From contig CM037870.1 in assembly GCA_021292105.1 (NCBI GenBank), positions 46,456,576 to 46,520,575 of the forward strand: a stretch of 64,000 nt of DNA, read 5' to 3'. The notes under the pieces are model-generated. The model did no database searches and was not told where the DNA came from. It saw only the letters and a list, made by a program, of their open reading frames with translations. The DNA is from Anadara kagoshimensis (Eukaryota; Mollusca; Bivalvia; Arcoida; Arcidae). Made by a program: the position numbers and the translations under genes. Positions within the stretch are counted from its first letter, which is position 1. The number at the start of each line of letters is the position of its first letter. Positions 3,301-52,200 of this stretch are shown here, one piece after another.

Positions 3301-6300
3301 GAGGTCTTATCATTATTTGTTATTGAAAAGTTAAACAAAATTTCCTGTTTTACTTTATAATAAAGGGTCTAAGAGGCAGTTTTAAAAGTATAGATGTTAA
3401 GAAACTTTTCTTTCTGTTTTCAGATTATTCGTTGTCTTCTCAAACTTTGCTATGTTTCTATTCCTATTAGCAAATATTGCCATTGAGTACTAATTTTCTG
3501 AGAAATGCTTTCAAAAAGTAACTTTTTTAGCAAATTGAAAAAAAAACTTTTAAAGGACTGCTTTTCACAAATTTTGGAATTTTGGCTTTTTACAGTTTTA
3601 AATTTATTGAAACCTAGACTGTATTTTACATATTAAATAAATATTAAGAATAATCTACATGCATATTTGTTTCATTTGCAATATACAATCTATATTTGAT
3701 GTTTATTTTAGGCCTTGGTGCCAATTACTGAGGAGATAACCATTCCATATGACTTCCATCGCTTCATCATCGGACAACAGGGTAAAGATGTACGCAAAAT
3801 GATGAGAGAACATGATGTAAATATATCTGTACCCCCAGCAGATGAACACAGTGACATAGTCAAAGTAACTGGACCACCAGCTAATGTCAGAAATGCTCTG
3901 TTAGCATTGACAGAAAAATGTGATCAGCTGGAAAAAGAAAAGGAGGATAGGGTATGTTCAAAGCACTTTATGATATCATAGATATTGGACTTTTAATATT
4001 TTAAATCTTTCCAGAGTTGTAATTCTTCAGTATGGAGATATTTATTACACATTCCATTTAAGTGTGACCTGTTGTTAATCCATAGTGCGATTCACTTGTT
4101 TAGTCATTGTATTGTCATATTATTGCGAAGTTTTAAATGGATCACTTGCAAATCCTATATATACATTTCAGTGATGTAGCGCCTTCTGGGCTGGATAAAT
4201 CTGAAGGTATCTTAATGGTTATGAATACTTACCTATGTAATAAATATGTGTATGCGTAAAGTCATCTTATATGGCTATGAGTTATCCAGTTCTGTCTGGG
4301 AAAAGAAGCATGATTATCTGTTTGTGATCTTTATTATAAATGGGGTTAATTATTTTAATAAATTTGGAATTATTTCAGAAATGTATCCAAAGCGAATGTA
4401 AGAGTTATTTCCCTTGACCTGATTTTTTGAAATCTAAATACATGTATTAAACCAACAAGTAATATTATTCTCAGAAAGACAATTCTAGTTGAATACAAAA
4501 CTTATCTACTGTTGTTGTTGTTCGTTTAGGTTCTGAAGAGTTTCCAAGTTACAGTTGAAGTGGATTCTCAGTACCATCCCAAGATCATAGGACGTAAAGG
4601 AAATGTTGTTGGTAAAATCCGCACTAAACACGGTGTTAACATACAGTTCCCATCCAGAGAAGGCCAAGATCAGAACACCATCGTCATCACTGGATACGAG
4701 AAGGATGCCAATGCTGCCAAGGATGAAATATTGAAAATTGTTCAGGAATTTGTAATACTCTGTCCATACGGTTTATGCTTAGTGAGATACACACATTACA
4801 CATGACCAGTGATGTCATAATCAAAAGACAGTAACATGATGTCATTTTGCAGAAACATGACACCTAAATCTCCAACATATATATATATATATATAAATTA
4901 TGTGTTTTAAATGTTAATTCTGGGACTTTAGAATAAATAATTTTGTTTCTTAGTTTTCTATATATTTTGTATAGATCAAAATAAGGTACGTTTTTTCCAA
5001 TGGTCACATTTATTTTAATATAAACATTGAATAACAAAGTTGTATTACAAACATTTATTTTTTCTCAATAAAATTGTAAAAGGTATTAAAATTTATTAGT
5101 TGTCCACTGGTTCTTAACACGAGAGGACTTTTGGTTTGCTCTTCTTCTGTCTCAGTCACACTTAGACAAATAAAATTGTAAAAGGTATTAAAATTTATTA
5201 GTTGTCCACTGGTTCCTAACACGAGAGGACTTTTGGTTTGCTCTTCTTCTGTCCATCAGTCACAGACAAATAAAATTGTAAAAGTATTAAAATTTATTAG
5301 TCGTCCGCTGGTTCCTAAACGAGAGGACTATTGGTTTGCTCTTCTGCCCATCGGTCACACTTTGACAGTAAAAGTGTTGTCTTGGGAATATGTATTACCT
5401 GCAAATACTGACTTAAAAAGTTAAAAGTTTTATAAATTGAAGTTTTAAGAGTTTCAATTTTTATTCTCTATATAGGAGGATATGTTAACATTAGAAGTAA
5501 AGATAGACCACCGTATCCATCCAAGGATCATCGGACAGAAAGGACGAAATATTAAAAGGATTATGGAACAGTTCAAAGTTGACATCCGTTTCCCCCGTGA
5601 AAATGATGAGGATAAAGATATCATATTTATCTCTGGAGCTGAGGATGATATTGAAGATTGTAAAGATCACCTGTTGAATATAGAGGAGGAATTTGTAAGT
5701 AAAATAAATTTTGTAGCTATACCAATTAAATATCTATTTCAAGACTTAAAAAGTTTAATTTGCTGCTCACTATTTTCAATACACACACAAAGAAGAAGCA
5801 GTTATATATATTCTTTTCTCGCCCCTATGCATATGTATATATACACGCTGAATATACATTTAAAAAAAACCCAGTGATTTTTAGTTAGGGAAGACGGTTT
5901 GTTTCAGCTATATTTTATTCAGAAAGAGTGAAGTGATGTTGTTGCACCCTAATCAAGATTTTTCTTTTCTGAGAAGGATACCAGAGTGCATGGAGAAAAT
6001 TTGGGACATACAGCGAACAGCTGACAAAACTTCTCACCCTTGATGTCTGCCAGAAAAAAGGTGAAATGCATCCATCATGTGTCTGCTTAAGCCACTTAAC
6101 CACTAATATTCATCATTTACAAATAAAAGCTAATTTCAAATTTAAATGTTATACTTCTTTTGTTACAGCTCCAGGATATCATTGATAATGAGTACATGCG
6201 TGAGCTTCAGCAGCCACCAAGCAGAGCAGAAGGTGGACGCTATAATAAAGGGCCGAAAGACCATGGATTTGTTGTCAAAGATGCACCATGGGATGTTCCA

Positions 6301-10230: not shown

Positions 10231-10350
10231 AAAAAATCTTAGACCGGGATGTAAAACAACGTAAAATCTTAGACCGGGATGTAAAACAACGTAAAATCTT
10301 AGACCGGGATGTAAAACAACGTAAAATCTTAGACCGGGATGTAAAACAAC
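10231..10350. repeat. 30-bp minisatellite, four copies
   Basis: Four head-to-tail 30-base units (agaccgggat plus gtaaaacaac and a cttaaaatc-like spacer); the last three are identical and the first differs by two bases. The open frame through it arises only because 30 is divisible by three. Confidence 0.97.
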
Positions 10351-11935
10351 GTTACTCCACTCTATTCGTTTTGCCTTTCTGAACCCTGCTTTATTCTGGA
10401 TGATATATGTATAAATAACCTCAATATCATTGAATTTAATGGACCTTCGTATTAGTATGAAGTTATGAAACTAGAAAATACCAAACGCTGAAACATACAT
10501 TGGTATCTATTAGAAACAATTCGACATGACTGAACACCAATTTGTCTTTATATTCAGTACTAGTCCAATACTAGTCATGGTATTAGTGTTTATTGTTCCT
10601 GAATAACAATCGCCCTGCAAACTTGTTACTTTTACGACTCTAAACTTAACCTATCTCAAAAATTATGCTGTAATAACTTGTATTGCTCTTATCAATGAAT
10701 TAATGACATAATAAAGTAGTCAATGTTTGGTTTTGGAGTGGTATATTGCCAATCTTAAACACCAACAATAAGTTAAGGTCATTGTACCCAATATATTGGA
10801 ATTGATATTGTTCTGTTGCAGATTTATGATGGCTATGTGTCAGAGAGCTGAGCAAAATTAATCTGTGTTGTAAATTGGAATTAAGACGGCTGTAGAGCGA
10901 GTTACAGAGCTATAGACTTTAGCATCGTTTTTAGAGAATAACTGCTTGTTTTACTGCGGATTACATATGCTAAATACTTTTGTCTAAGATACTACATGTA
11001 TAATGCACAAGAATAAAAAAAGTATATCAACTTGTAATACTAAAACAAAATTGACTGAGTTGCTGTAAAATTGGTTCCACCGGATACCAAACCATTTAGA
11101 ACTATACTGGACACCAAGTTGTCTCCGGTAACGGTCCAGTATCGAGAGTTTTGTAATCTGTGACGTCAGTATATGTTCATTTGTTTTTATATGGTTTGGT
11201 AACGCCGTCTTGATGAACAATCGTACACAATTTTAAATTCTATTTTTTAACAAAAATTGTTTAAAAAGTCAACAAAACTGTTTCTTTAAAAAGTTAGCAG
11301 AATGGTGTCATTAATGTTGGTGATGCAATGGACTAAATTGTTCTATCAATCCATGAGATAATACATTACAGTTCATGTTGATTTAAGTTAACCCATTCAT
11401 GAATAACATCAATACAAACGTAATTTTACATAAGTATGGACGAATGTTTCGTTTTTACATGTGTGTGGAACGAATATTTCGGAACGTCCGGCCATCCCGG
11501 TTATTTTATATAAAGGTTTCTTATTAAAATTTTTTATTAATTCAAAACAAACCTTATTATACCAAAGAGTTAACCAATACTACTAGACTGACTCACACTA
11601 TTACAGATTCACTATGCGATAATCCTAACTATCAAATGTCATTCAAAATGCTAGGGGTTATAAATGTAACGTTAAATGTGCATGTGATGGCAAAGTATAC
11701 AGTCGATTTTAATATTCTTCTGCTATTTTTTGCTTCTTATTATAAATGATTATGACAAGCCCTTAACACTTGTCCATTATTATGTCTGTTATACCTGATG
11801 TTTTGTCGATTAAAATTCTTGGAATGTACTTGGTTAATCTGTGTTATTACATAATGTTTATAAATCGCTTCACAGGACTTGAAGTACACTGTCCTATGCT
11901 AATTTAGTTGTTGTTTTCCTTTTTCCCACTACAAA

Positions 11936-21392: not shown

Positions 21393-24300
21393 CTGAAAAA
21401 AAATTGAAACAAATTTTAGATTGATATTAAAATAAGAAAATAGCAGTTAACGGTCGAATAACGCATACTGAGTGGGGCAAAAGGCGGATCAATTTGTTTA
21501 ATTCTTAATCATTCATTTTCAATTTCAATTGTAAACTTGGCGTGTTCTGCTAGCTAGACACGAGATGAATACCCTTCCAAAACACCCAGCCTCACTTCTC
21601 CAGTGAAATCGTAATAAAATTTAATGTGCCAGTTTTATTTTTACTTTTGAATTGTGGTTTGAACATGGGCGGCTATGTTCGTTCTTGATTAATAAAGCTT
21701 TTATTACTATATATTACTATACAACGTAAAACTAAGGAATGATGCTTTAACAAGAATTAGCTATACATAGGATGAATATTTCTTGATATATTGTTCTTAA
21801 TTGCTATTGTCTTCAATAAACCCGGCTCTTTGTCGCTTGTGCAACATATCAATATCGACATGTTGCAAAAGTTTTGCTAAGATCTATGTTGTCTTCTGAC
21901 AACTCTTGCTAAAGTAGTGAATGCCCCTGACTATTGTACAGATCATTATATGAAGTCATACTGTCATATTAAGGTTTATGTAACCGCAACTAAAAGGTCA
22001 TAAACTAAGCAAGAGCTTTGCTCCTGAAATACACATATTTTAAGTTCAATCAAAGTGTGTAAGTGTCCATATGTTAATCCCCATAAACGTGACGAGATTG
22101 AAGAAGTATATTTACCATTGTTTACTTGTTTCACATTTAAAGAATCAATGCTTAATTTGCATTAGTAATTGGAGCTAGTATCTTATTTTGAATTCTATTT
22201 GCTATGAAATGTAAATAACACCGTTCGTCGACTCTTGGGATTTATAATCCTGAACAGAATTAAAACAAAACGATTGCTTTAACAGACAGCTACTGATCGA
22301 CAAATTGATAATTGTACTTTTCACTTTCAGCACACTCCCTTGAGGATTTTTTAACATTCAAAGTACAGTTTTTATTACAGTTTCCATGACGTCAATTAAA
22401 CCCATGACATTTCGTTGATTTAATAGAGGCATTATACGATGTCGGTGTTGGTAGGTTAAAATATAAGATAGTCGTTGTGATTTTATGCCACACAATTTAT
22501 TTGGTCGGGAAATAATGAACTTTCTATAGGAGATATCTGCCAATACATCCCTCACCCAAGTGCACTATGTGTATAGTGTAATAGTTCATTTAAAGCACGT
22601 GGCCTGAATTTTATCTTTGATCTCCTTCAAATTTGATTGGGATCTATACTGTTGAATGGCCCGAGTGACCTTTGAGTCCCTTTCTTTCACAGGTTAATAA
22701 ATTCCGTGAAATTTTATAATGCCTTGTTCTGCGCCTAGCATTGTGTCAACAACAATTGTGTGTAGTTTTCAGATATTTTAAAACAAAATAAAAAATTACC
22801 TAAAAGATTTAAATTGAAAATATATCCATGCCTTTGATGAGAAATTGCATTGCACTTTTCATATAATGGTACTCACCTAAAAAGATCCATATTGAAAAAC
22901 GTATCCATGCCTCTGAGGACAAAGATGACAGCATGAATATATTCATTAACAAGGCTAATAATGGTACGAATGGTAGGTATGGTGTCCCAAACAACAACTT
23001 TGTTTGGTTTTGTGGTTGCTTGAAGATTATTATCATTGTACTTGTTAAGATTATCACAGACAAAACTAATAATGATATAGCCCACCAGGCTCCTTCTATT
23101 ATATAACAGCCTCCAAATATAGTCAATAACGATAGTAAAACAGACGATATTAAATACGTCACTAATGCCACTGACGTAGTCAACCAAGATGTCTGACTTG
23201 GTTCCTGAACTATCTCGGGAGGTAACTGGAATAGACTACTAATACTGCCAGCAGACGTGCTACTGATTACACTGTCCATCTTCTGATACGTACTTCCTCT
23301 AGGAATTTGGCACTTAAGCGGTCTAGTTTCTAATGAGCTATTACAATATCCGGTTGATGGATGTTTCATCACATCTGTCTTTTTACACTGATTTTCTGAA
23401 TTTACACGACCTGTTCTTTGAGTAGTCATAAAATTTGCATATACAAACTCTGTGCACTGAATAAATTTGTCATCTGGATCCTCGTATTCCTGGTACAGTC
23501 CAATATGTTGAGGTTGATACCTCAAACAGACAACACAAATTACAACTGTAGTTGACGCCGCTAAAGTACCGATTGAAAGCACGTCAATGAGAACATTAAA
23601 TTTAAAAATGGAGGATAAAAGTGCAGAAATAATTCCAGGTAAAAGAATGCTAGTTGCTGAAATATTTGTACAGTTGTTTGTGGTTCCAAAACATTTAAAG
23701 ATAAGGCGATCTCTTCCCATAGCATATACAGTTCTAGGAAGTGCATACAGTAACGCTATTAATGCTGCAGTTAAGGCTATCAGACCACCGACAGAAATAA
23801 CCTGTAAAGCACCATGGATTCCTCGCGCGTCATATGCTTTTGATATTGTGGCGTCATCAGAGAATTTATTCCATGAACATGCTAAGGTCACAGCAGATGT
23901 TACCCGAAGTAGAGAAGAAAACACGTGATAAGTGATGTAAATATAGCTGTTGGAATGTTTTTTATTGGTTCTTTGGTTTCTTCACTTGACAAGGCGACAG
24001 AGTCGAATCCGATAAAACCATAATATAGTGTAGCTGATGCACTGAGTACCTACAAAATACATGATTAAAATAATAATTTTGCGTTATTTATAATTCTTAT
24101 GTACTGTTTTACTATCAAAAACTTTTGGCTCAACTGAATATTAAATAGATATGTAAATTTTTTGAATGGAATTGAGCGGAGTGGAGTGAAGACACCTTGG
24201 CGGAGATGTGCTGGGATCGCTCACACGCCTATGATCGAATTCCACTCAAATCTTAATATAAGAACGTTTTAGTTCTATTGCAAAAGAAGGTTTTCTCTTG

Positions 24301-27300
24301 GCTCAGTGGTTTGATAAAAGATATTCATCAAGTCTGTCACTATGAACTCTTTAATACGCTAAGATATATTACAAAACAATTTGTATTTCCGTATTGGTTT
24401 CCTTTTTAGTTTAGTTACCACCCATTTTGCAAGGATTGGGTTCCTAATTGCATTTTTAAATAATGGATTCAATGGTTTATTGAAAACTTCATACCGAATG
24501 AAAAGTTACGAGGGGAAGTCAGAAAGTTCATAGAGCAGCGTATTCAGTCAAGCGTAACACACATTTTCTTTACTTATTTAGACAACACAACATTCCGCCA
24601 TTTTAAACATATCAAGTTTATTTGTCACAACATATTTGTGTAATTCTCAAAAGCATTTAAAGTTGGTGACCATCAAGCAATGATGGAAAATCAAGATGTT
24701 GAGTTTAGGACAGTAATAAAGTTCTTCACAGTAGAGGGATCAAACGCAAAAGAAATTCACCGGCGAATGGCCGAGGTGTACGGTGACAGTGGTCGTGCCT
24801 ATTCAACAGTGGCAAAATGGTCAGATGAATTTAAACGTGGGCGCACCTCACTGAAGGATGACCTACGGTCAAGTCGGCCAGCTGATGCCATCACAAAGGA
24901 AATTGTAACGTCTGTGGAGACCCTCATCATGAATGATCGTCGAATTAGGATTGATGACATAGCTAGGGAGTGTGACATTTTACGTGGAAGTGTATACACG
25001 GTTATCCACGAGCATCTTGGGATGTCAAAAGTATCCGCAAGATGGGTCCCTAGAAACCTTAATGTGCAGGATCGCTTCCAAAGACTCAAGTCAAGTCGGC
25101 AGCTTCTTGGCATTTATAATGATTACCCGGAGAGCTTCCATTTACGTTTAGTAACTGGTGATGAAACATGGATTCATCATTGGGACCCAGAAACCAAAAG
25201 AGTCCATGCAATGGAAACACCCTGGCTCACCCCCACCAAAGAAATTCAAAACCCAACCATCAGCTGGCAAAGTCATGGCCACAGTGTTTTGGGATTCTAA
25301 GGGTGTTCTGTTAATCAATAATAAACCTGCTGGAATCTTTATCACTGGGGCTTACTATGCTGATCTAATGAAGCAGCTGAAAACTGCTATTAAATTAAAA
25401 AGGAGGGGAGAGTTGAGCCGAGGGGTATTGCTTCTTCACGACAATCCTCCTGTGCACAGGTCAAGGATTTCACAAGCAGCCATTCGTGAATGCAAGTTCG
25501 AACAACTAAATCACCCACCCTACAGTCCCGATTTGGCACCCAGGGATTATTTCCTATTTAGAAATTTGAAATCCCATTTACGGGGAATCAGATTTCCTGA
25601 TGACGGTTGACTTAAGGCTGCCACAGAGGCATGGTTTCAGGACCAACCCGAAGACTTCTATTTCAAAGATATAGACAGTCTGAAAGAAAAGTGGGCTAAG
25701 TGCATTGGGGTAAATGTGTACTATATTGATAAATATCAATACAATGTATGGTTTGTTGCGGCAATATATACCACGTTCTATGAAGTTTTTAACCTCCCCT
25801 CGTAAATATCTCTATTCAAATTGGCGGTATGATATGGAATTATGTTTCATGCGCAGAAAAATAAAAAGTCACTTGTTTACGGTCAGGTTAAGTTTCTCTT
25901 AAAGATTTTTTTTGTACATTTGATAAGGAGCTTATCTCTATAAATTCGCAAACTATTTTTTACCAATATTGCAAATCTCATAAACGTTGGATATGTATTT
26001 CTTCTAATTGATCTGGTTATGGAGTAGAATGTAAATAAATCCCTTCGACTTAATAAGCTTAAGGAATCATATTTCTAAGATAAATGGTCTTTTCATATCT
26101 CGTTATTGGATTTGACATATAATATATATTTAATTAGATAATAAATCGTTAAATCACTTCAGATTATGCAGTATCGTTTAAGTAAATTACAAACGTCAAA
26201 TATGAAATACATTCTGTCAAATAGAATAGACTTAAGGGATAATTGACGTTGTGTATTGTGATGTGATTTTGTTATCTTGGTTAACCAGATCTTGTAATGT
26301 CATGACCAATTGACGTATAATCTCTGTTCAATTATGACCTACTAATGAGGCTATAATAGTTTTTTTCAAAGAATGGCTTCAGTAATCGACATTTTCTAGA
26401 TTATAAAATCGACTTATGTTACATATTTTTCTCGAGGTTTTAAAGTCGCAAATCATGATTGTTTAAATTTGCTCATGTTTTATTCAGCAATCGCAAACCA
26501 TTATTATTTAAATTTTACCTAATTCTTAGGATCTTTGAGAAAGTAACGTAGCTTACATTATGCTAAAATACTAATAATCAAATAACAATATAAAATATAC
26601 AAAGTATTTGAAATTTTTATTGATATATATATGCATACAAGTATTGTTTGAAGGTCTAATTTCTAAATGATTATTTTTCAATTTAAATGCCACTGATTGT
26701 AATTACATATTATACCAGTTTCAATTTTACAGCACTAGACGGCCGTTTCGAATACAATTCCTCATCAGTAGTGCTTGGACCAAAATTCTGAAACCAAAAT
26801 CATTTTGAAGATGTTGAAAAGCTACCCAAAGGACCAAAATATATTTTACCAAATTAAGCTAAGGAAATACTTTGCATGAGGAAGTATACCTTAGTTTTTG
26901 AGAAATTTCAAATTTTAACTTGCAAGGAAATTTAGACAATTATAGTATATTTCTGACAATAATACGAAATTATTGCCTACTGAGTTTGTTATATCCTCTT
27001 GGCACCAGCCACCAGCTGAGATATAAATGACCAAAATGGCCACCTAACTACACCCTTTCCGCAGTCTGGGTTTTGAATCATTGATTTTAGTACTATGTCT
27101 TTTTTGTCCTGTTTTGTTTGGTTGCATTTTTACTTGTGTTATTTTGTGTTCTAGATTGTATCGCATATTGCCAAGTACATGTTTTTTCCAGTTACAAATT
27201 TGTATGTTCTATTTTACAAACTTGTTCTTATTTTTTTCATAATGAGCTTAATGAAGTGCAGTAGAAGAAACCCTTTTAAATGAAAAAGTATACTTGTCAA

Positions 27301-30300
27301 TAAAACTAAACCTGATAACACTTCTTGGTATTTATAAACAAGAGTTCCAAAGGGTCTGTATCGCCCAACTGATGTTTATTTGCATTTGAATTATGGAAAA
27401 CCTTTTCAGAAACACTTATAGATGTGCATCAAGCACAGAATTTCTCAAAATGAATATCATTTATTGTTGTTTAATATTTTGAAGGACTTACAAATCTCAA
27501 AAGCATGATTCTTTATTGTTTGTTTTACAAACGGCTAAGACACTTGCTGCTAAGGAATTATGTAACTAAGAATTACCAAATGTATAAATGATTCTTTATT
27601 ATTTATTATCAAAATCTGATAAGAATGAAACTTAGTCTTTTAAAGCATGCAATCATGATTATATAACAAGATTCCATCTAGTATTATGCAACTTCAAATA
27701 AATAAGTGGAATAAAACTTTAATTTATATTATCTGGACCAATATTTTATTTATAATCAAGTCATTCAGAGGAAAATTAAATTATATTTAATTAAACATAT
27801 ATTATGATCTTATCTGACAAACATAGTCACTTGATTTATTTTCTAATTCTTGTCTGAACTTTTCTGTTATCTATTAAACACGATCTGCGGTTATAGCTAA
27901 CAATGTGTGATAAATATCAAATCCTTTATGTAATATCACTTTAATCTATGGTACCTCTACCAATTTACTTCAGTTTAACCTATTAATTAAGGGTAATTCG
28001 TAACAAAATGTGTTTTCTATTGACTTATTATGAAGGAAAGCTAATAAATAGTTTTGTTTAATATGAAAATATTAGATAGTGTGGCCAAATACTTATTGAA
28101 GTCTAATAAAAAGATAAGAATATAATATTTCCTAGTCTAAATATAAATTTAATTGGCCACACGATTATTATTTTGCTACATAAACTACATAACACCATTT
28201 GCAATATCAGATTCTACGTGATAAATCAAAAGCAATTGATGTTATAATAGTTTAAACAAGTTCTCAATTGCCTAGCAGGACTTGATAACCAAGTAATTGG
28301 AAATTCTAGAAATTGATGTGGATATAAATTTTGCAAATGGCAACTTATGAATGTGAAAAATACAAATGTCGTAAAATGCAATATAAAAGAAAAAAGGTTG
28401 TAAAATGCTTAATTTTAAGAAAAAAAGTTTTAATAGTTCAAAGGTCCAACATTCTCCAGCTTCAGAAATTAATTACAAGGTTTATTTTTTAAGCATCTTA
28501 ACAATACCACCCCCATATAATTGTACACATTTCATAACAAGCGACAGCATTTCTAAGTTGAGCAGTAACGGAAGCAAAAAATTGAAAATACATTTTTACT
28601 TGTATGCTAAGTCGTTCAAAATATTGCCTTAGGTATATTTGGTTAAACATTTTTCTCATTTAAACATCTGAAAAGTATTTGGATTTCCACAATTTTGGTC
28701 TGCGAACTACTGAAGGCGAAACTTTTTCGGAAACTATTTATTGATGTAAAACTAAAACAGTTCCAGTAATGTCTGAAAATACCTGAGCTTAATAAACATG
28801 GTTTGATGCGTTTGTTTTTGATTTGCGATATCCGTATGTTCAACATAACGATGTGGAAGTGAGAAGTAGTATTCCGTAATGAAACTTGCTATCACTAAAA
28901 CAAACAAGAGGAAAATCATATATTTTTGAGAACAGATACCATAGCAGGGTGCTGTAGGCACATCACCATCGTATCAAGAAAAAAATTAATTTTAAAATCC
29001 ATAATAATTTCTTTTAATGCAAATTTAATTTTCATCAATGTATATATTTTTATTTTAAGATCAGACTATAAAACAAGAACATCCGAATCGTTTCCTGATG
29101 GATTCAATGGAAGTATTTTCTAAATTTAAGGTTTTTAATATTTAGATATCACCAAAAGGTTCTTATAACGCATTCCAAATAACTAAGCCATTGTTCGTTC
29201 ACTGTTATCCCTATGCGTTGCTTTTAGCAATAAGTGATGTACAAGTAATTTTATTTCAGTATTTATGTGATAAAATGGAATACTATACTCGACAAATGTA
29301 TGTCTGAAAAATAATATACCGTTTGATGTTATAAATTATATTCTTCTTCAAGAAAAAAAAATGGTGTTAAAACTAGCAATTTGGAAAGCATATTTAAAGA
29401 AGATTAAATTTATCGGTAACGGTGACATTGTATTTCAAGGAATTTTATTAATGTAGCATTTCTTATAAAATGACAGCTCTTTCTGCGTCTGATTTGGATG
29501 GTCATTTTAATGTTTTAATGTCACTTCTATAAATTTATCTACACTTACATATATACAGTTTTGTTTTTATCACTATTTGACTGAAATTGTAATCTATATT
29601 TTTATGAGTTTTCTTTATTTTTCAACAGACCAGTCCATAATTTATATAGAATACCAATTTATACATTAAAACGTCGATGGCTCGAAGTCCGGGGTACTTG
29701 AAAACACATTTATTGATTAGCAACCAGTCATTTAGATAGAGATATAAGGCTAATCAATCAAGTTGATTAAATTTAATCAATGAATCTTTGATATATTTAA
29801 TACAGTAAAACCTCAGTTCATCGCCACCATTTGTTCAGTAAAATTTCGGCGTTATAAAGGGGTTTGGCAATAAATCGAGGGAGACCCATAAAGAAAAACT
29901 TAAACATAATGGATTTTGGGACTTAAAAATAGTGTGGCGATAAGCAAGGTGGCAAAGTTATCGAGGGGCATTATAACGAGGTTTTACTGTATCTTGTAGA
30001 ATACATACAATACGAAGCATTTCAGAATTACAATGATTAATCGAAATATTGAAGTAGTTGAATATCTAAATACATAATTTAATCTTCATTTGGAGAGAAC
30101 AAAAAAGTGATTATTGAATTTGGAGACGAAAATGCAAATAAAGATTCAGAGTTCATAATTGAAGTATTTTTGTGCTATGTAGAAATGAATTGAGAATTAT
30201 AAATAATAAAGAAACTGGATTCGACTGGTTTTTTTTTTCTTTCACATCGATCGTACGTAACATGCATTATCTTTTTATTTTTTTTAAAATATAAATCATC

Positions 30301-33300
30301 AACAACAAAGCTCTGTATTGGTGATTATCATAGAGCCCTTTGTTTAATATAGTTATGACCAATCTCTAAGTTTCCTAGCCAAGTAGCATAAATTCTATGA
30401 GAGGTATTTGCAGGTGGTAAAGTCTATTTACAGTAGACAAATTATGGATGAAGGAAACCAATAAATACATTTCATTTAGCTGATTAATATAGCAACGGAA
30501 TCAGTTGCAAGACACTTATTGACTGTAATTAAAGATAAGGATATATTCAATATTAGTCATTTACTCCGAATTTATCAATTGTATTGACACCATAATCAAT
30601 GGAGAACAAACTAATTACAACGATTTCTTGGTCGCAATAAAGATAAAGTTATAAGTCATAAGTAGTATCGACGTTGTCAAGGATCTCTATGAACTATTTA
30701 ATTACTTAACACTTTACACTACCATATGTTTTATTTACAACAAGATAGACCAGTTAAGGTGTTATTCGTTTCAACGCTAATCGTTCCATAATCAGAGGTC
30801 GTATTAAATATTATGATTGTATTATAACAAGATTGTCTAATATGATCTTTTGATTTCCATTCGGCGAATTCTTGATCTGTTGTATTAAAACCTAGCCTGG
30901 TTTGGTATAGTCCAAAATGAAAACAAATTTTTGCGCTGAGCACAGTTATATAAATAAAAGAATTGGTACCATTCGTTGACAAAGCCAATGTTTATATGTT
31001 TATGTTAACATTTCCTATCCACATGTGCTTATTTTGTCTTATGTTTCGTTTGATTTGTTTTGGATTTTGACAAATACAAGAATGTTTAAGCCTGATATTG
31101 AATATTGGTGATTTTATCTTAAACATTTTGTAATGTTTTTTAAATAGTTTTGGTTTTGAATCTTAATCTTTTGAAATAATGTTATCTAAAAAAAATTTTC
31201 TACAATTTTAATAAAACTGTTCCGAATGACTACATCCAATGGTACTCACCCCTGTAAAGCCATGTGGAAAAAATCCAGGCGGTTCAATCCAGTTTTCATG
31301 TTTTACATGAAAAAATCCAACGCAGATAATGCATATCATAATTAGGCCACTAAATATTGATAAAATGACACTAAGGGCAGCTGAAACCTGAAAAATATAA
31401 ACAAAAATAAAATAAAATATTTATTTTCCCTGGATAAATGAAATAGTAATTCTATAGACAAAGTAACAAAACTGAACAAGATTAGCCTATAATATTTTTT
31501 ACATGTTTGAATTTTCTCTAGATTAATACATGAGATTTTTCATTAATAAACGACTAAATTGTCTTTAAAGGTGTAACTTTCAATTCACACACATTGATAG
31601 TATGTTTGTTTTTGACAATGATACTTGGTACACAATAATCTGTTACCAATGTAAATGCATCTTTATTAGGAAAATTCGTTAAAAACTATATTTATTTGTG
31701 TTTCGCTGATGTAATTAAAACTGACTAAAGGATAAGCTGGCAAAAACAAGATGCGCTCTGTGATCATTATATGTATTGAGCTTTGAAATTTCAAATAAAA
31801 ACAAACATATCGGTCCATGTTCAAATAATAATCTAAAAAGTAAAATAAAAACAACAATACTAATCCGCATCCAAATCACAATTTCAAAGCATAATTGTTG
31901 CAAAACTAAATGGACTTTGAATGGTTGAATGGCTCATAAAAAGATTTATATTGCACACAAACAAATGCATGGAAAGCAAACAGGAACAACACGCATTGCC
32001 ATTTTTACATAAATCTGAAGATTTAAAGAATTACGTAACATCTGCTGTAATGAGCCTATGGAGATGACACGATACCTTATACAAATGTATTATTGACAAA
32101 AAGGATATTAACACCAACAAAGGTAAAAAAGCCATGGCGACTTAATCAATCAAATGAGTTGTATTAATTTATGTATCCATATCATGAATTGTCTAGATCT
32201 TACAAATATATCGACAATAAATTTTTTCTTGATTGAAATTCCTTCTATCTACTCGTAAGAATGAATGTAGTTCTGATGAAAAATTGAAAGGTTAACCCTG
32301 TATTTAAATAAAAATGATCTTTTCTCTGCCTTCATATATTGTGGTTTGACTAAGAGACGAATACCCATATATTTAACATTTTGTTCCTGATTCAAGCCTA
32401 ACCTTGAAAATGATTACTGTGTTACTGTGTATTTCCTTTTAGACAAGAAGAAAGATCATGTAAAGTATTGGAATTACAAGATATATCATGTAAGGTATAA
32501 TTAAGAACAAGGAAGGAGATTTACAGCAAAACGAAATAAAAAAGTGACGAAGAAAAATCCATAATGAAATGAATCAAAAGAGATAGTTACTGCTAAATTA
32601 ATATATTTTACTGTATGTATTCATGTCGTGATCTGTCTAGAGCCGGCTAATAAAACCCTAACAATATCTATATTATCCTCACGATGTCATTTCGATATCT
32701 TTCTTTTTCTTTCAACTCATAGGAGTAAAATGTATTGCTGAGAAAAGGTTAGTGAGAATCAATAAAATCAATGTTAATTACGGCGTTATAATACAGTAAG
32801 ATATTGCTTTATGTGCAATAATTGAGGGTCAAGCATTCATTGCGACAAGGAATAAAACAAAGTCGAACAAAGCATTTAAGCGACGTCTATCACAATAAAA
32901 CGTGATGTGTATTGAGAAACAGTAATATTGCTATAAATATATTTTGTAACTTCTTACAATACAGTCTATGTTATGGACGTTAGACATTCTGTAATATAAC
33001 TCTGAATGTTGAAAATTACAGTTTGTTGCAATAAATTGAGCTTTTGGATGGCTTGTAAATTATTTTCTACATCGTATATCAATAAATACGAGGACATCCG
33101 AGTCAAGAGCAAAACATAACACATAGAAAATGCCAACGTTAAAAATAAAATCTCATGATTTATAGGTGATAAGAAACGAACCAAATTAGTACCATGTTGC
33201 TTGTTATTTTGTAAATCCCAAACCTTCCACTAATTTTGCAAAGCTTGAATGTACGTGTTATTCAGTTTTATTCATTTATTCTGAACAAATAAATGTAGTT

Positions 33301-36300
33301 TTATTCTTTTTCGTTTCATTTCTTAAATGCAAGCTTAAAAGAAAAATTATTACAAAGAACATAAACCTCGCACTAATAAATGAAACAAAATTGAAGTACA
33401 ATTTTCAAAGACATATTACATATTATACCAGTTTTAATTTTACAGCACTAGACGGCCGTTTCGGAATACAATTCCTCATCAGTAGTGCTTGGACCAAAAT
33501 TATAAAACCAAAATTATTTTAAAGATGTTGAAAAGCTACCCAAAGGACCAAAATATATTTTACCAAATTAAGCTAAGGAAATACTTTGCATGAGGGAGTA
33601 TACCTTAGTTTTTAGAAATTTCAAATTTTAACTTGCAGGAAATTTAGACAATTATAGTATATTTCTGACAATAATACGAAATTATTGCCTACTGAGTTGG
33701 TGATATCCTCGGGGCACCAGCCACCAGCAGAGATATCTGTTGTTTTACATGAGAGTACATGCAGTACAGTGCGTCTATATTCAGAAAGAAGTCCCAAACA
33801 TTGTGGCAATACATTATCTTTTTACTAGTCAGCAAATGACTTTACATCGTTAAAACATTATTCTTTTTGCCACATTCCCCACGTTTAATGCGATAAAGCA
33901 TATGTAACACAATTTATTCTGGCAAGTTCTACATAAATCACACAGTAAGAAGGCTTTAGAAGTAATCAATTATCATGACAAATAATAACCAATTTCAGAA
34001 CAGTTAGAAGCATGTAGGAAATGTCCTTCCACAGAGGTAATTATTTCTTAGCCTGTTTAAATTTTGCACCAATAGACGGCTGTTTAGTAATAAAATCGTG
34101 GTATCTTGTCCAAAAATATTTATTTCTTAAACATGTTTTCATGTTAACATGTGTGCAATCTTAAATTCGATAGTAGCAATATATGTTAGGTATGCTGGAC
34201 ATCGAAACAAGGACAAAAATAAAACCAACTAACCTTATCACATCTTATCAGTATACTACTAATGGTCGCAGGGCTGATACTGATTTATTTTCATTTAGGT
34301 AAACCCAGTAAGGTTAATGACATCAGAATAATGGCGTCATACACTGATTTGATTGGATAATACTACAAATGAGGAATTGTATTTCGAAACGGTCGTCTAG
34401 TGCAGTAAAATTGAAACGGGTATAATATGTAATTGCAAAAGAATTTTCAATGACACATAGCAAATAATATATCTCTTGGAATTGTATCAAAGTTTATTCA
34501 AAATGACCAATAGTATAAAATAGGTGTGATTAATTAAAAATAGTGTAACGGCTTGTACAAAAGAATAAGGAAATTTGAAACAGATTCAAACGTGTTCTTG
34601 GCAAACGCATCATGAAACAATATAAGTTCAGAATGAAACACAGACGATGAACAAATATTTAGACCACTTATGGTAAATGTCTATTTCGGACAAAAAAAGT
34701 CATCACGTTTGCCATCTAGCTTTCATAAATAAAACAAAAAATATTTAAAACCTATACGATACATTTGACTTACTTTCAAGGGAAATATTATGAATTGCAT
34801 AAAAAGACTGATATATAAATATACATTTACTCTATTAAGTATCCTTTTATATACATACTGACATAATACGTGATTCTCACGTTATTTCCATCCATTGCAA
34901 TACCTTTTCAGTTGCAATATCCAATATGTCTTAATAATTTTTCCTCTCTCAAATAGTTTTTTCTTGAGCATACAAAATCATTGTCTTCGGAGGAGAGGAT
35001 AAATGTGCTGATGCAGCATTTTAAAGTATAAATCAGTAACCTTACTCAAAACGTTTAAGTGTTTAAACTGTACTTCTAACCAAAGTTCAGACTGTTATTG
35101 CATTAAAAAGGTAAAATAAAACTCTGGATGAAATTTATTGCGTTTCAGACGTCTGGGGTGTTTTTATCTATTATGATCGTACATTTGTAATAAATTTATT
35201 TATTTTTATAAACTTAAAACGTACGTAAATTTCTTGCATGTTCTACATTTGATACATCAAGAATTTAAACGGTCAAATCACCACTGGATCCATGTTTCAC
35301 TATTCAGTTACTGTCAACGCATACATTTAAGCCGTGTGCTACTTTAGCGATCATTAGATAACTGCCCATTATATAACTTACTGACAAGTTAAATACAATC
35401 AAGAGCACAGAGCGATTCCTGAGATTTACGCCGATTCATGTCAGTGTTGATTTACCACAATTATAATTTGCGCAAAAATTAATATATTTGCAGTTTATAG
35501 TTTGTGTTCAGTAATATATGAGTTATACCTTTATACCTAGAAACATTATCATGGTGCAAAGTATCACTATTCCAAACGCCACAAGATCGGGACCCTCAGA
35601 TAACATAGGCTCCGATGTCCAACGTAAACTGTCATTGAAATATCTGAAATACAATGAATTATTTAAACATTATCATTATATCAATATTTCTAATAAAAAT
35701 GGAAAGTGCCGAATGATAGTTCAAGTGCAACATTTTAGTAAATCGATTTATATTTACGAGCTTGTATTACAAAAAGTGATGTACCTTATGGTTTTTAGTC
35801 ACCCCAACATATTTGGAATGACTTATTGATTTATTTTTTTATGTTGTTCCATGGAATTGCTCCTATGTGGTATTACGCAATGAATTTTTAAGCAGATACA
35901 TCATATGTTTTTGATTTAGGTGCAGCACACCCAATCTGCACTAAAGCAGCTTCAGGGAACACGTTTTTGTTTACCACATATTACATTTTGTATTTTCTAA
36001 TAAAAAGATATTACTTCTCCCAGCCAACGGACATTATTCTAAGGATATTGTTATTTTGCACTGTAAAAAGTATTTATTAGTGCCATATTGAATTTTTCAT
36101 CTTGACTGATTAGACCATCTCCAATAAAATCGAAGATGATGAATTATTTGATCAATAGTTTTGTCTTAGAACCTGCTATATTCCTTTTAGAACATTTTCT
36201 GTCTATTTGTACATATGCCTCTCTTGTGTCTTGGAATTTCTTGAACAAATAAGCTGATATCTACTCTACATAATTAGGGAATACGGCTAACAAGAAAGTA

Positions 36301-39697: not shown

Positions 39698-42600
39698 ATA
39701 GGCTGATAGGCCTAATGAAATTTAGAAATGTGCAACAGATATGGTTTTCAGTTGTTCTAAGCTTTAGTACTTGGTGTTGTTAAGAAATTATAAACAACCA
39801 TATGGAACTTACATTTGAATAAAAACTTTTTGCTAAATGAGGCATTATCTTTGGCAGAAAATTAAATGCCAATTTGGTTTTATGTTTTACAATGCAGTTT
39901 CACTGTCCAAAGTGTAAGTAGAACAAATTGTGCAAAATAGCAAGAACCAAGCAGAAGATTGATTACATCTGAATCTTCCTGGGTGAAGTTGTTATATGAC
40001 ACCATGCCAACTCTGTTCAAAAACTTTGTAAAGTTTGGTAATGCGTACAGTAAACACTTATCTCAAGCGACAAAAAACCCCTTTTGGGCCGAAGTATTTT
40101 CAGCACTATATAGTCTTAGACTTAATATTGACGAAGAAGTATATGAACATATCCCATTATGGTATAATGATATTATTGTTATTAATAATAAACCAGTTTT
40201 TTATAGCTCGTTTTTTAAACGTAACATACTATATATTGGTGATATACTAAGTGAAAATGGTGATTTACTCAGTTATGAGCTCTTATGCGAGAAATATAAT
40301 TTCTCTCCAGCCTTTACTATGTTCTTAGGTCTTAAAAAGTCAGTTGCCATGTTATATGACAAATTTGAACATATAAGATATGAATCTAACTTAGTGTCAG
40401 TAAAATTTGTAGAATTATTAACAAAAAATAACAAAGGCAGCAGAGATTTTTATGATATTTTTATTCAGAAACTTTACTCTCAGCCTAAGAGCGAAGTAAA
40501 ATGGGAAATTACCCTTGACACTCAGTTTAGTGCAAAATGGTGGAAACTTTGTAATTTTTACACTGTTAAACATGTAAAAGACACCAGATTAACATGGTTC
40601 CAATACAGAATTGTTCATAGAATATTATGTACAAATACATTTTTATACAAGATTGGTGTAAAAGACCATGATATATGTGATTTCTGTCATGAACAATCTG
40701 AAACACTGATACATATTTTTTGGGATTGTAAAATTACAACTATTTTCTGGAAAAATGTTGCCAAATGGATAAATGATAACTTAAATCTTGACATTGATTT
40801 CAATTTGTTAGATATTCTTTTTGGTTATTGTTGTAAAAACAGATATGCTCTTAACCTTATTATACTATTATGTAAAAATCATATATACAGAGCAAAAATG
40901 CAAAAAACACTGCCATTTTTTGAAACAGCTAGAAAAGAAATTTTATATTACAAAAAGATTGATGAATATATCCACAAGAAAAATTGTAACTCTTACCGTG
41001 AAAAGTGGGGCATATTTGATGCCCTTGTATAATCCTTTGTTATATATACAACATAAAATGAAAAATCAAATTACAACCTGGTGTAAATATGTGTGTAAAT
41101 GTGTGTATGAATGGTGTAACATTGATGTCTTTTTATGTCTATGTATATCATATAGAAATGAATAAAGATATAAATATAAAAAAAAAAAAGAACCAAGCTG
41201 AAACTCAATAAGAAGATTAGGTTTCACACCAGTAGTGTCACAAAACAAAACAGTGCAACTAGAAGGGTGGTATATAAAATCCTCATCCATATTCACTAAA
41301 AGTTTGTTTTAATAAACAATCAACACCTGAGTTATGCTGAACACAAATATCTAAAATAAAACTTGCTGCTTCCAAAATCAACAAATTAATAATCAGTCAG
41401 ATTACTGGTACTGAAAATTAGTAAATTCCATTAAATGGACATGTTTATCAATTATTTTTGTTTAAAGTGAGCATTCTTTAAATGTATAGTGTTTGATAAA
41501 CATATTTGGTTCCAGTTTTACAGTCATTCCTAAACTAAGATTTTCCTTAATTGAAATCTGACAACTTTTGAAACAATTTTATGCAACTGAAAATACAGTT
41601 TCAACAAAATTCCAATATAAATGTAAACAAATCCTCAAGAATGGTCTTCAAAATGTCCCCTTAAATTTATGAACATCTTGAATACAGAAAAAAGTATTCA
41701 GCTTTCAAATTTGCTAAATTCAAGTTGAGGAAAATCTCAAATAAGGAATGAATGTTAAACTGGAGTCAGCAGTCTTAAGACCATCACTTTTACAGAATAT
41801 TCATATCTAAAGGCATAGTACCAGGCAATAATAACCACTACCATTTCTCAGGTCTTTGTGTTCAAACCCATAACCCATTTACAGAACAAATCCTCTCCCA
41901 AAGGAGCTACTCTAACTGGACAGGCTGTAATGTGTCACAAAATACCAGCATATATGTATTTTATACAAAAAACATTGTATATAAGTACCATGAAGAATAG
42001 GCCTACATATTGTGTGACAGTAAAATTATGGACTAATAATAATGATGCAAATAATTTTAACAAAATTATGCACTGGGATAAAGCTATTGACCTGCCTATA
42101 TGTACACATCTTGAAGGGGCAGTATAAATACAGTCTAGCTTTGAGAGGTCAGTATATATACAGTTAAGCTTTGAGAAGCCAATATGTATACAGTATATAT
42201 CTTGACGGGCATGTATGTATACAGTATATATCTTGACAGGCCTGTATGTATACAGTATATATCTTGACGGGCCAGTATGTATACAGTATATATCTTGACG
42301 GGCATGTTTGTATACAGTATATATCTTGACGGGCTTGTACCTATACAGTATAGCTTTGACAGGCCAGTATGTATACAGTATATATCTTGACGGGCATGTA
42401 TGTATACAGTATATATATTGACGGGCATGTTTGTATACAGTATATATCTTGACGGGCATGTTTGTATACAGTATATATCTTGACGGGCCTGTATATATAC
42501 AGTATAGCTTTGACAGGCCAGTGTATACAGTATAAATCTTTATATGCCTGTATGTATACAGTATAGCTGTGATGGGCCAGTGCACAATTGTGCATTGATC

Positions 42601-49278: not shown

Positions 49279-52200
49279 CCGGATATATGGTGTACTTTTA
49301 GATTTCTTTTTGGATTTCAACCATTCCACTCATTTTATAACGAAGAAACTAGACGCGTCGAAAGTAAGCGAAAAATAGAAATAATTGTTCATGTCTTGCA
49401 CTTTTACGCATCTCCCGAATATTGAATCCTGCAGGCAAGATAGGTTTGAAACAGTTTATGGTGAACTGTTCAATACGCAAACTAAATGCGCAACGAATTC
49501 ATTTAGTGCTTAAACCCTAATCTTACCGGAAACGGCTCGTGGGATGCGGAATTGAATGATTTGAAATTTTGAAAATGTGTCAATTTATAAGGTAATAAAA
49601 TAGTTATTTCAGGGTGTTTTCAAAACAGTAAAATTTATTGTCCATTGGTATCAGGGATTGAATGTGTGGAACGGCTCCAAAAGTAATCCCTGATACCCCA
49701 GGACTTTAAATTTTTCTCTTCCCAAAATAACCATTAAATAAATGTATAGTGTTTATGCCCATTCAAAAGTCACTGAAAATCAAAACTTTCATGTTTCCTT
49801 AAACGGTGGGTTTTCAGATGTATTGAATGCTTTTTAAACTGTTATAAAATCGATTATCCCTGAATCCGAAAATACTTTATACTAACTATACTTATCAAGC
49901 ACTACATTAAACTCGGCTTTTAAAGGTATTTTGCAACCTATATACATATCTGTCTGATTTCTAATTCACTGGAGTATATTGTTTTGTTCATCATCAAACG
50001 ATAAGTCGCTTACAGCACTGGGATTTGATCAGATTGCTTTTTGAATGGAATCTGGCATTATATATAAATCTTTCCGTGAATCTGTAAAACACATTATACA
50101 ACACTTTGTAAATCAGGTCATTAAACATACAACGTTTCCTCTGATTGCAATAACATTCAGCGCGATTTGTAGATAAAAAAGAAAGAGTTCAACAAATACT
50201 TAGTGAGTAATTTGCTTTAGTAAAATATTTTAAGTTTATTAATTCTGCTTTGCAAAAAGCTCTCATCTCACAATATTTTTCTTGCATTTCATTTGGGCTT
50301 TAATAATTGATTTTTCATTTTAAAATATCTCATCGGATAATTACTCTTCAAAGTATTGATGCGGGAATATTCCTGACGGAATGACTGATATGATGGTTTA
50401 AAAAAAGAATAAAAAGGAATACTGAATAATAATGAGGAAGTTATTTAAATGAATGAAAAAAGTCACTTACACAAACCTCTATTTGTTTTATAGATCGTTG
50501 GTAGAGTACGTGTTTTTTTCAATATTTCATAAGTTACACTTGCTTTTCAGATTATTTTTTTTTCATTTTTCATATAATTTATTGCATTGGAATATGATTA
50601 TACGTTAACATTTTTTTGTTTTGTTTCTTGCTATGTGGTTGTTAGTGACGCCTACGTTAGAACTACGTATAATTTACTTATTGTTTACTTAAAAAAGTAA
50701 ACACTCCCAGAATAAAAAAAAACCATTACTTTGCCAGCTAACGGTTTGGTTTGATTTTTTTGGCGACGGTGAGCAAGATGTTTCCATTGCATGGACTTTT
50801 TTGGTTTTTAAATCTCAATGGTGAATCCGTGTGTTATCATCATTCACTAAGCTTACATAGAAACTCTCTTCTTTTCCATTATAAATGTTTTTGACTAAAA
50901 TCCTTGCAACCAATCTTTGGATGACCCTTCGACCTTTGGATCCTTGAGTTACCTTTGACATTCTAACATGTTCAATGTTAATTTGCAATACTTCCATGCC
51001 AAATATGACACACTAACTTTGACACCAACCTAATGCCTTCATTTATTAAACGGGTCATCATTTCATTGTATCAGCTGAACGACCTAAAAAAACGTCATCC
51101 TACAATATGCCACGCCCCTTTTAAAATTAAGCTGTGCGTTTTACCATTGTTGAATAAACAAAACCAGAACTACGAACTAGATCCCGCATCAAACAATTTC
51201 CCTGTGGATAAGCCAGCATATTAAATTGTGTAACTACACTTATTATGTTATTCCAAATCGGTCGTCTAGTGCTGCAAAATTAAAACTTGTTTAGTAATTT
51301 AATAGAAACCATAATGTATTGCTCTCTTGAGAATAATCACATTTGCGGTACAGATATAATAAGATGTAATATGTTTCATTATTTATGCTAATAGTTTTAT
51401 TACATATTGAGTAATTACTGTTATTTAGAATACCAGGTGTATAATGTCCGTCTTACATATTTTTACGGAAAGCGTTTTTTGTATTTTTTTAATTTTTTTA
51501 TTTTTGTGAAGCAAACATGAAATATCATAATATTACATAATGACAGTAATGTTATTGATGATAGTATAAAAATTTCATTGCATGATAATTTAAATAAAAG
51601 GCTTATAATACAAACTGATTAAGACATGAAATAAAACCAAGCTACTGCTTTTTCTTATGTTTTATGAAATGATCACATTAATTTAAACATATACCAAAAT
51701 CAAAAACAAACATATCAGTCCATCCAAAATCACAATTCCAAAGTAAAATAAAAAAAAACTTTAGAAACTGGCAAATTCACTTACACACGTAACTCTCAAC
51801 AGCGAAGTGAGGTCAGATGCTCCGGAAGGGTGAGCACTACCAACACTAACTACGTATGTTATTAAGAAGAGAATAAAGGAACCTGGAACGAAAGAACGTC
51901 AAATATGAATAGGATAACTTTCGATAAAGTCATCATATTTATCAACAATATTGCGATGACGGCAATGAAGCTTTTTGACGGCTTTGATAAGCTTAAGCTT
52001 GCAATATCCGTGCGCCAGTCATTGCCAATTAAGGCAACTGCATACACTACTAACTTGCTTGAATTTCTCTCTGCAATTATGTTATTTATTACTAAAGAAT
52101 GCTGTAAATATATTGCCAATCCTTTTCAAATATTTCTGGCTTTCCCATTTGTCGAATTTAATTTTTCAAATACCATTGACTGGTAGCATATTTATGGGTT

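Follow-up and report, generated by a model that had tools for sequence, protein, structure and literature searches.

Self-cleaving hammerhead motifs that lie on the sense strand of introns raise two linked questions: whether the motif is a ribozyme at all and, if so, whether it belongs to the gene in which it sits or to a repeat that has landed there. The case considered here comes from the bivalve Anadara kagoshimensis, in a stretch of 64,000 nucleotides of contig CM037870.1 (assembly GCA_021292105.1; positions 46,456,576 to 46,520,575), hereafter the window, where intron 4 of a transporter gene of the CAT/SLC7 type carries such a motif. We hold, with a probability of about 0.85, that this ribozyme belongs to a metazoan non-LTR retrozyme, a low-GC, non-coding unit of 338 nt present in thousands of copies. 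The family would be an abundant retrozyme of a known type of element, and the copy in intron 4 (c1) is an undecayed one. The interest of the family lies in its insertions, which record the way in which they arose (a fixed start 36 nt beyond the cleavage site, 5′ stops at random, and truncated units joined to full ones) and so bear on the question of which retrozyme RNA form becomes DNA.

The hammerhead motif in intron 4

The minus strand at 33444-33489 reads, in order, AGCACTA / CTGATGA / GGAAT-TGT-ATTCC / GAAA / CGGCC / GTC / TAGTGCT. An earlier note, made from the letters alone, had described a type I hammerhead with a short stem III at this position, and both its coordinates and its sequence were confirmed. 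Stem I is paired at 7 of 7 positions and stem II at 5 of 5 around a three-base UGU loop, every invariant catalytic base of the core is present, and the whole follows the type I layout, with the core CUGANGA ... GAAA ... UH and three helices in type I order. The predicted cleavage site is 33451/33450 on the minus strand.

The earlier note had also proposed a check against the Rfam covariance model, and this gave a mixed result: Hammerhead_1 (RF00163) aligns end to end (model positions 1-45 of 45) with zero non-standard pairs, but in a search of 54 nt it scores 28.1 bits (E 8.2e-6), short of the gathering threshold of 34 bits. Adjusting the E-value to a length of 64 kb would give about 0.01 over all families. 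Rfam reported the hammerhead only in searches of 53-57 nt, in a region chosen with the finding already known; searches of the whole window, and of 351 nt with E values up to 10, did not report it, presumably owing to the speed filters. Single-strand folding was considered as evidence and set aside as uninformative, the minimum free energy (MFE) of the c1 strand by itself being ordinary (z -1.03 and z -0.81).

We base the hammerhead call on the core, the helices and the family built around them, and not on the Rfam cut-off. A descriptor (stem I of at least 5 bp, CTGANGA, stem II of at least 3, GAAA, stem III of at least 2 counting A15.1-U16.1, G-U pairs allowed) matches the window twice, at 33444-33489 and 26731-26775, against one match in 150 random first-order Markov windows, and a plain pattern finds the same two places against 0.02 expected (100 shuffles). 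That the resemblance arose by chance has next to no probability: the score of c1 below the gathering level and the silence of the whole-window searches would fit it, but the rarity of descriptor matches in random sequence and a genome-wide head-to-tail family centred on the motif do not. Judged on its sequence, 33444-33489 is a real type I hammerhead, in a retrozyme copy that has escaped decay.

Copies in the window and the genome-wide family

The earlier note overlooked that the motif is part of a genome-wide repeat with at least six copies in the window, among them a near-intact second ribozyme in intron 5 (c2; Table 1). Copies c1 and c2 agree in 310 of 324 alignment columns, and c2 has its own predicted cleavage site at 26738/26737. 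The sequence GTATAATATGTAAT ends c1, c2 and c3 and occurs nowhere else in the window. Core and stems are whole in c1 only among the six copies, and the alignment shows no full core in c4, c5 or c6. Head-to-tail copies were looked for within the window and none were found; no clear target-site duplication flanks the five window copies examined for one. An open frame from the ATG in the core into the tail is present in c1 and c3 and broken in c2, and is likely due to chance.

Table 1. Coordinates of the retrozyme copies, their ribozymes and the surrounding transporter gene parts in the window.
Feature	Position	Strand	Description	Basis
Type I hammerhead ribozyme (copy c1)	33444..33489	-	in intron 4	sequence inspection, Rfam alignment, descriptor
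Retrozyme copy c1	33415..33736	-	322 bp; the 338-nt unit without the 16-nt link TTAAACCCCTGAGCCG	repeat alignment
Tail of c1	33415..33450	-	36 nt past the predicted c1 cut, up to the family's common 3′ end ...GTATAATATGTAAT	
Retrozyme copy c2	26702..27024	-	96% identical to c1; in intron 5	repeat alignment
Hammerhead of c2	26731..26775	-	core kept, stem II minus one base; 22.7 bits to RF00163	
Copy c3	34362..34433	+	truncated at 5′ side of ribozyme; CTGATGA changed to CAAATGA; 14.3 bits to RF00163	
Copy c4	51249..51304	+	older; starts inside ribozyme	
Copy c5	28602..28758	+	old and decayed; pieces about 67-74% identical	
Copy c6	34052..34096	-	old; starts inside ribozyme	
Transporter exon 5	31250..31387	-	138 nt, 46 codons, phase 0 at both ends; between the two ribozymes	tblastn and splice sites
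Intron 4	31388..35528	-	4141 bp, GT-AG	splice sites
Intron 5	24050..31249	-	7200 bp, GT-AG	splice sites

Across the 1,115,223,567 bases of the genome searched, there are 9884 matches to the core pattern (4941 forward and 4943 reverse), as against 725 (485 and 240) for the reversed pattern used as a control. The structure of the unit was read from a sample of loci on one contig, made up of eight loci and 60 further stretches taken in listed order to 6.34 Mb, with six places unlike the family omitted and a pair at 8.48 Mb (L068) added for its 338-bp spacing; L003-L006 overlap L002, leaving 64 loci counted. The array at L002 consists of five full units in head-to-tail order at a spacing of 338-339 bp, and the 16-nt TTAAACCCCTGAGCCG stands in front of every one. 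The corresponding junction, in which a 3′ end, a short link and a 5′ start follow one another, is present at 17 of the 64 loci (16 of 63 if the picked pair L068 is left out), in 23 matches, one of them being the boundary of the L002 array on its upstream side. The usual link is the same 16 nt, with diverged forms in older copies and longer links in L044 and L045. From this junction structure it follows that the unit is 338 nt long and that c1 and c2 stop 16 nt before a full lap; the 338-nt head-to-tail units rule out the reading of a 322-bp, non-tandem element whose 5′ end would be defined.

The genome-wide count and the tandem units of 338 nt raised our probability for the retrozyme reading from about 0.4 to the value given above, and they support the suggestion of the earlier note that the motif derives from a retrozyme or a Penelope-like element (PLE). 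Metazoan retrozymes are described as non-coding repeats of about 170-400 nt with a GC content below 45-50%, type I hammerheads and tandem arrangement, which are expressed in circular form and probably owe their movement to PLEs or LINEs (PMC7229834). The unit length here and the GC content of c1 (33%) fall within that range. The closest likeness is to the retrozyme of Mytilus galloprovincialis, with about 5000 hammerheads in repeats of 350-390 bp (PMC7229834): going by the published description, both have a non-coding, low-GC unit of a few hundred nucleotides with a type I hammerhead, in thousands of copies that are dispersed as well as head to tail, and they differ in unit length, 338 nt here against 350-390 there. 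The exact 46-nt ribozyme of c1 is present at 14 of the 64 loci (19 copies), all of them other than c1, which makes c1 simply an undecayed copy. A scan of viral-contig and genome-contig collections for the ribozyme with its flank gave 0 matches.

Several observations count against the retrozyme reading: the sub-threshold Rfam score, the shared start of c1 and c2, which random truncation does not account for, and, as detailed below, the lack of clear compensatory changes in the stems, the ordinary stability of the circle, the scarcity of target-site duplications, and the lack of any RT beyond a weak zf-RVT of LINE type among the 35 listed window ORFs. Other kinds of repeat were also considered. 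A SINE derived from tRNA or 5S RNA was rejected, as pol III A- and B-box patterns are unmatched in c1 and c2, and so was a DNA transposon or Helitron, for which no terminal inverted repeats or CTRR end were seen by eye and against which the 3′-anchored truncation speaks.

Among 54 distinct family ribozymes, no clear compensatory changes were found in the stems. Changes are nearly all one-sided, and pairing is kept in 45-54 of the 54 at each pair, a pattern that looks like the decay of one sequence and lends the helices no support by covariation. Some junctions (L018, L029, L034, L044, L045 and L064) are diverged, have other links, and start with GTATCTCT rather than ATATCTCT, pointing to older subfamilies. 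Several loci (L024/L026, L027/L031, L062/L063 and L044-L046) share, in pairs or trios, the same insertion with near-identical flanks, which suggests that contig C1 contains duplications of greater extent than the insertion.

What the insertion ends record

The two ends of the insertions behave differently. When alignments extend past the cut (unit position 286), 66 of 101 end at one base and 80 of 101 within 2 nt of it, so that copies of the family share one 3′ end, which lies 36 nt beyond the cleavage site. Their 5′ ends, by comparison, are scattered: in 60 insertions they fall at unit positions from 1 to 276. At 12 loci (L001, L017, L019, L034, L036, L038, L042, L048, L064, L066, L067 and L068; counted manually from the alignments) a 5′-truncated unit stands ahead of a full or nearly full one. 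Taken together, the fixed 3′ end, the scattered 5′ ends and the truncated-before-full units argue that an RNA in circular or multimeric form was reverse transcribed from a fixed starting point. Every truncated leading piece at the 12 loci starts upstream of the cut, from which it follows that the copied RNA was continuous across it. The template is therefore a circle or an uncut multimer, since a self-cleaved linear monomer cannot yield truncated-plus-full dimers.

We envisage that tandem transcripts would be cut by hammerheads paired through their palindromic stem III, that the unit RNAs would be closed into circles, and that the reverse transcriptase (RT) of another element, a PLE or a LINE, would start at a fixed point and run for less or more than one lap. 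With an RT start 36 nt beyond the hammerhead, a PLE would be a fitting candidate for mobilising the family, by analogy with the Poseidon element of Anolis. In the account given in PMC11167929, this PLE has an optional tail of 30-40 bp that corresponds to sites of internal RT starts, tandem and partial-tandem copies, and a hammerhead near the end that bears the tail; hammerhead cleavage is described there as unneeded for insertion in vitro, and RNA-seq ends as absent at the cut site.

These traits also suggest a different origin, in which the copies would be the pLTR-plus-tail ends of an autonomous PLE, reverse transcribed from uncut tandem transcripts with no circle involved. We regard this as unlikely, though the resemblance is real as far as the Poseidon description goes: both have a fixed 3′ end a few dozen nucleotides past the ribozyme (the 36 nt seen here lie within the 30-40 nt expected), partial tandems and 5′ truncation. 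Unlike Poseidon, as it is described, the present family has a short unit, and the 338-339-nt tandem spacing at L002 leaves no room between ribozymes for an RT open reading frame (ORF). Nor is a PLE protein (an RT with or without GIY-YIG) encoded by any of the 35 listed window ORFs of at least 90 aa, all 35 of which lack an RT signature beyond a weak zf-RVT of LINE type.

The retrozyme reading also carries expectations for the circle itself. Published retrozyme circles are described as highly self-paired, and the circle here is not unusually stable: 66 of 100 shuffles fold as stably as c1 and 41 as stably as c2, a 339-nt tandem unit folded as a circle is equalled by 64 of 100 shuffles, and 59-65% of the bases are paired at the MFE, short of that description. 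Target-site duplications of more than 4 bp, where present, are likewise associated with retrozymes, and L014:726-1032 has a perfect one of 29 bp abutting both ends of a copy truncated at unit position 17, which is probably a clean, young insertion. Beyond this locus the evidence for duplications is thin, with shared flanks of at least 8 nt at 7 of 60 insertions (against 4.4% of mismatched pairs) and of at least 10 nt at 1 of 60 (against 0.3% of mismatched pairs).

Copies c1 and c2 stop at an identical base (33736 and 27024), 16 nt before a full lap. Among the 60 sampled insertions, only the L002 array starts at this base, with the link upstream. This agreement may mark a favoured stopping point or a transcription start, or may be coincidental.

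Predicted folding and cleavage

The earlier note had called the ribozyme intact. Structurally it is, but beyond that the word is too strong in view of a catalytic fold 4.5 kcal/mol above the MFE, a triloop on stem II and the low Rfam score, which together make efficient cleavage as a monomer doubtful. For the c1 monomer the catalytic fold has -7.8 kcal/mol, as against -12.3 for an alternative in which part of the core is paired, and as loop II has only 3 nt, the usual loop-loop contacts are doubtful. Two c1 copies behave otherwise: their MFE is exactly the double hammerhead, at -34.5 against 2 x -12.3. Stem III and its loop together form the palindromic ACGGCCGU, and the Rfam consensus ACGcgCGU is likewise palindromic. 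When loop III was randomised, the double hammerhead remained the MFE in 22 of 300 variants, about the share of palindromic tetramers. On these energies, which come from a model without tertiary contacts or magnesium, we predict that c1 would cleave poorly as a monomer and well as a dimer.

Precedents for such behaviour are described. Cleavage that depends on a dimer, in hammerheads whose stem III is weak or palindromic, is documented in axolotl (PMC7229834), is reported for newt and avocado sunblotch viroid (ASBVd), and has been proposed for several repeat-type hammerheads (PMC6155905, PMC3088659). As these systems are described, the axolotl and newt retrozymes, ASBVd and the palindromic set of Perreault et al. 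2011 (PMC3088659) share with c1 a weak stem III that is fully paired only in the dimer; loop II here differs from theirs in having just 3 nt. Against the prediction of poor monomer cleavage, most tested invertebrate retrozyme hammerheads are said to be efficient as monomers (PMC7229834), and that of a mussel retrozyme is given a rate of about 0.1 per minute (PMC7761336).

The host gene and its two intronic copies

The host gene is a probable molluscan amino-acid transporter of the CAT/SLC7 type. With CAT proteins as queries, tblastn finds minus-strand exons at 56217-56098, 38409-38287, 37681-37472, 35666-35526, 31390-31247, 24049-22854 and 21393-21304, and among 8000 candidates scored the nearest named proteins, from Ylistrum, Mytilus and Mercenaria, are 39-43% identical, and an unnamed protein (P0001) is 97% identical. 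The location that the earlier note gave for the motif, on the sense strand of transporter intron 4, is borne out by these exons and by the GT-AG ends of the intron at 35528 and 31388. The large exon at 24049-22854 has a one-base frame change near 23903 (23900-23910, minus strand), beside a GGG run, through which P0001 reads on; this could be an assembly error, an allele or a decaying gene.

Both copies, c1 and c2, are in sense orientation, the former in intron 4 and the latter in intron 5, and they bracket exon 5. The earlier note had expected a cut at c1 to sever the intron and possibly to yield small or circular RNAs; a single ribozyme would indeed cut the intron, but a circle needs two. With two present, the pair could in principle act as an intramolecular double hammerhead on the pre-mRNA: cuts at 33451/33450 and 26738/26737 would free a 6713-nt RNA containing exon 5, and the outcome would be loss of exon 5 or, after ligation and splicing, an exon-5 circle formed without back-splicing. 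Such excision would be compatible with a retrozyme origin. The arrangement is suited to it, with both copies on the same strand, a single frame-neutral exon of 138 nt between them and canonical splice sites, and the c1:c2 double hammerhead (-30.4) comes within 1.5 kcal/mol of the cofold MFE (-31.9). We nevertheless consider it distinctly improbable, more so than the PLE origin discussed above. Stem II of c2 is weakened (22.7 bits), the copies lie 6.7 kb apart with splicing in competition, a pair of random insertions in these introns would have about a 16% chance of being both in sense and in separate introns, and the ribozyme is no better kept than the rest of the unit (differences in 1 of 46 columns against 13 of 278, p 0.70). 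The thousands of copies in the genome lowered this reading slightly further, as such pairs are expected elsewhere by chance. Were it true, it would amount to an accidental gene-sized retrozyme that could occur at many genes, and if many copies sit in sense in introns they would offer natural replicates for asking whether a pair of hammerheads can take out an exon; the sense copies bracketing exon 5 are worth a test.

The full core of c1 and its sense position in an intron also recall ribozymes proposed (RECK, C10orf118) or tested (Cpeb3) in connection with introns, and c1 might on this ground be a domesticated ribozyme that tunes splicing. This is very improbable. The intronic ribozymes of RECK and C10orf118 in amniotes and that of Cpeb3 resemble c1 in being self-cleaving motifs on the sense strand of introns, but they are described as conserved across species, and c1 is one copy of a dispersed repeat whose exact 46-nt ribozyme recurs at the 14 other loci noted above. 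The c1-c2 comparison detects no selection or constraint on the ribozyme (p 0.70). Work cited in PMC10919898 is summarised there as finding that splicing suffers from fast intronic ribozymes but not from slow ones. Under the retrozyme reading, c1 is most likely a passenger in its intron, where a lone monomer would cut slowly or never and leave splicing mostly unaffected.

Other features of the window

Intron 5 of the transporter also contains, in antisense, a transposase of Mariner type in two overlapping frames (24644-25610, plus strand; HTH_48 and Transposase_1, the latter at 73 bits). A 363-aa open frame at 39941-41032 (plus strand) matches zf-RVT weakly (27.2 bits against a cut-off of 27.5) and is perhaps the 3′ end of a LINE. 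A minisatellite of about 31 bp, with 12.5 copies at 42183-42565, is open in three minus-strand frames, and at 10233-10352 a 30-bp unit is repeated four times, perfectly and head to tail. Near the start of the window, KH_1 domains in three open frames of the plus strand within 1732-5877 (1732-2004, 4530-4805 and 5476-5877) resemble vigilin, and a tandem repeat of 102 bp (5067-5345) lies between the second and third of these.
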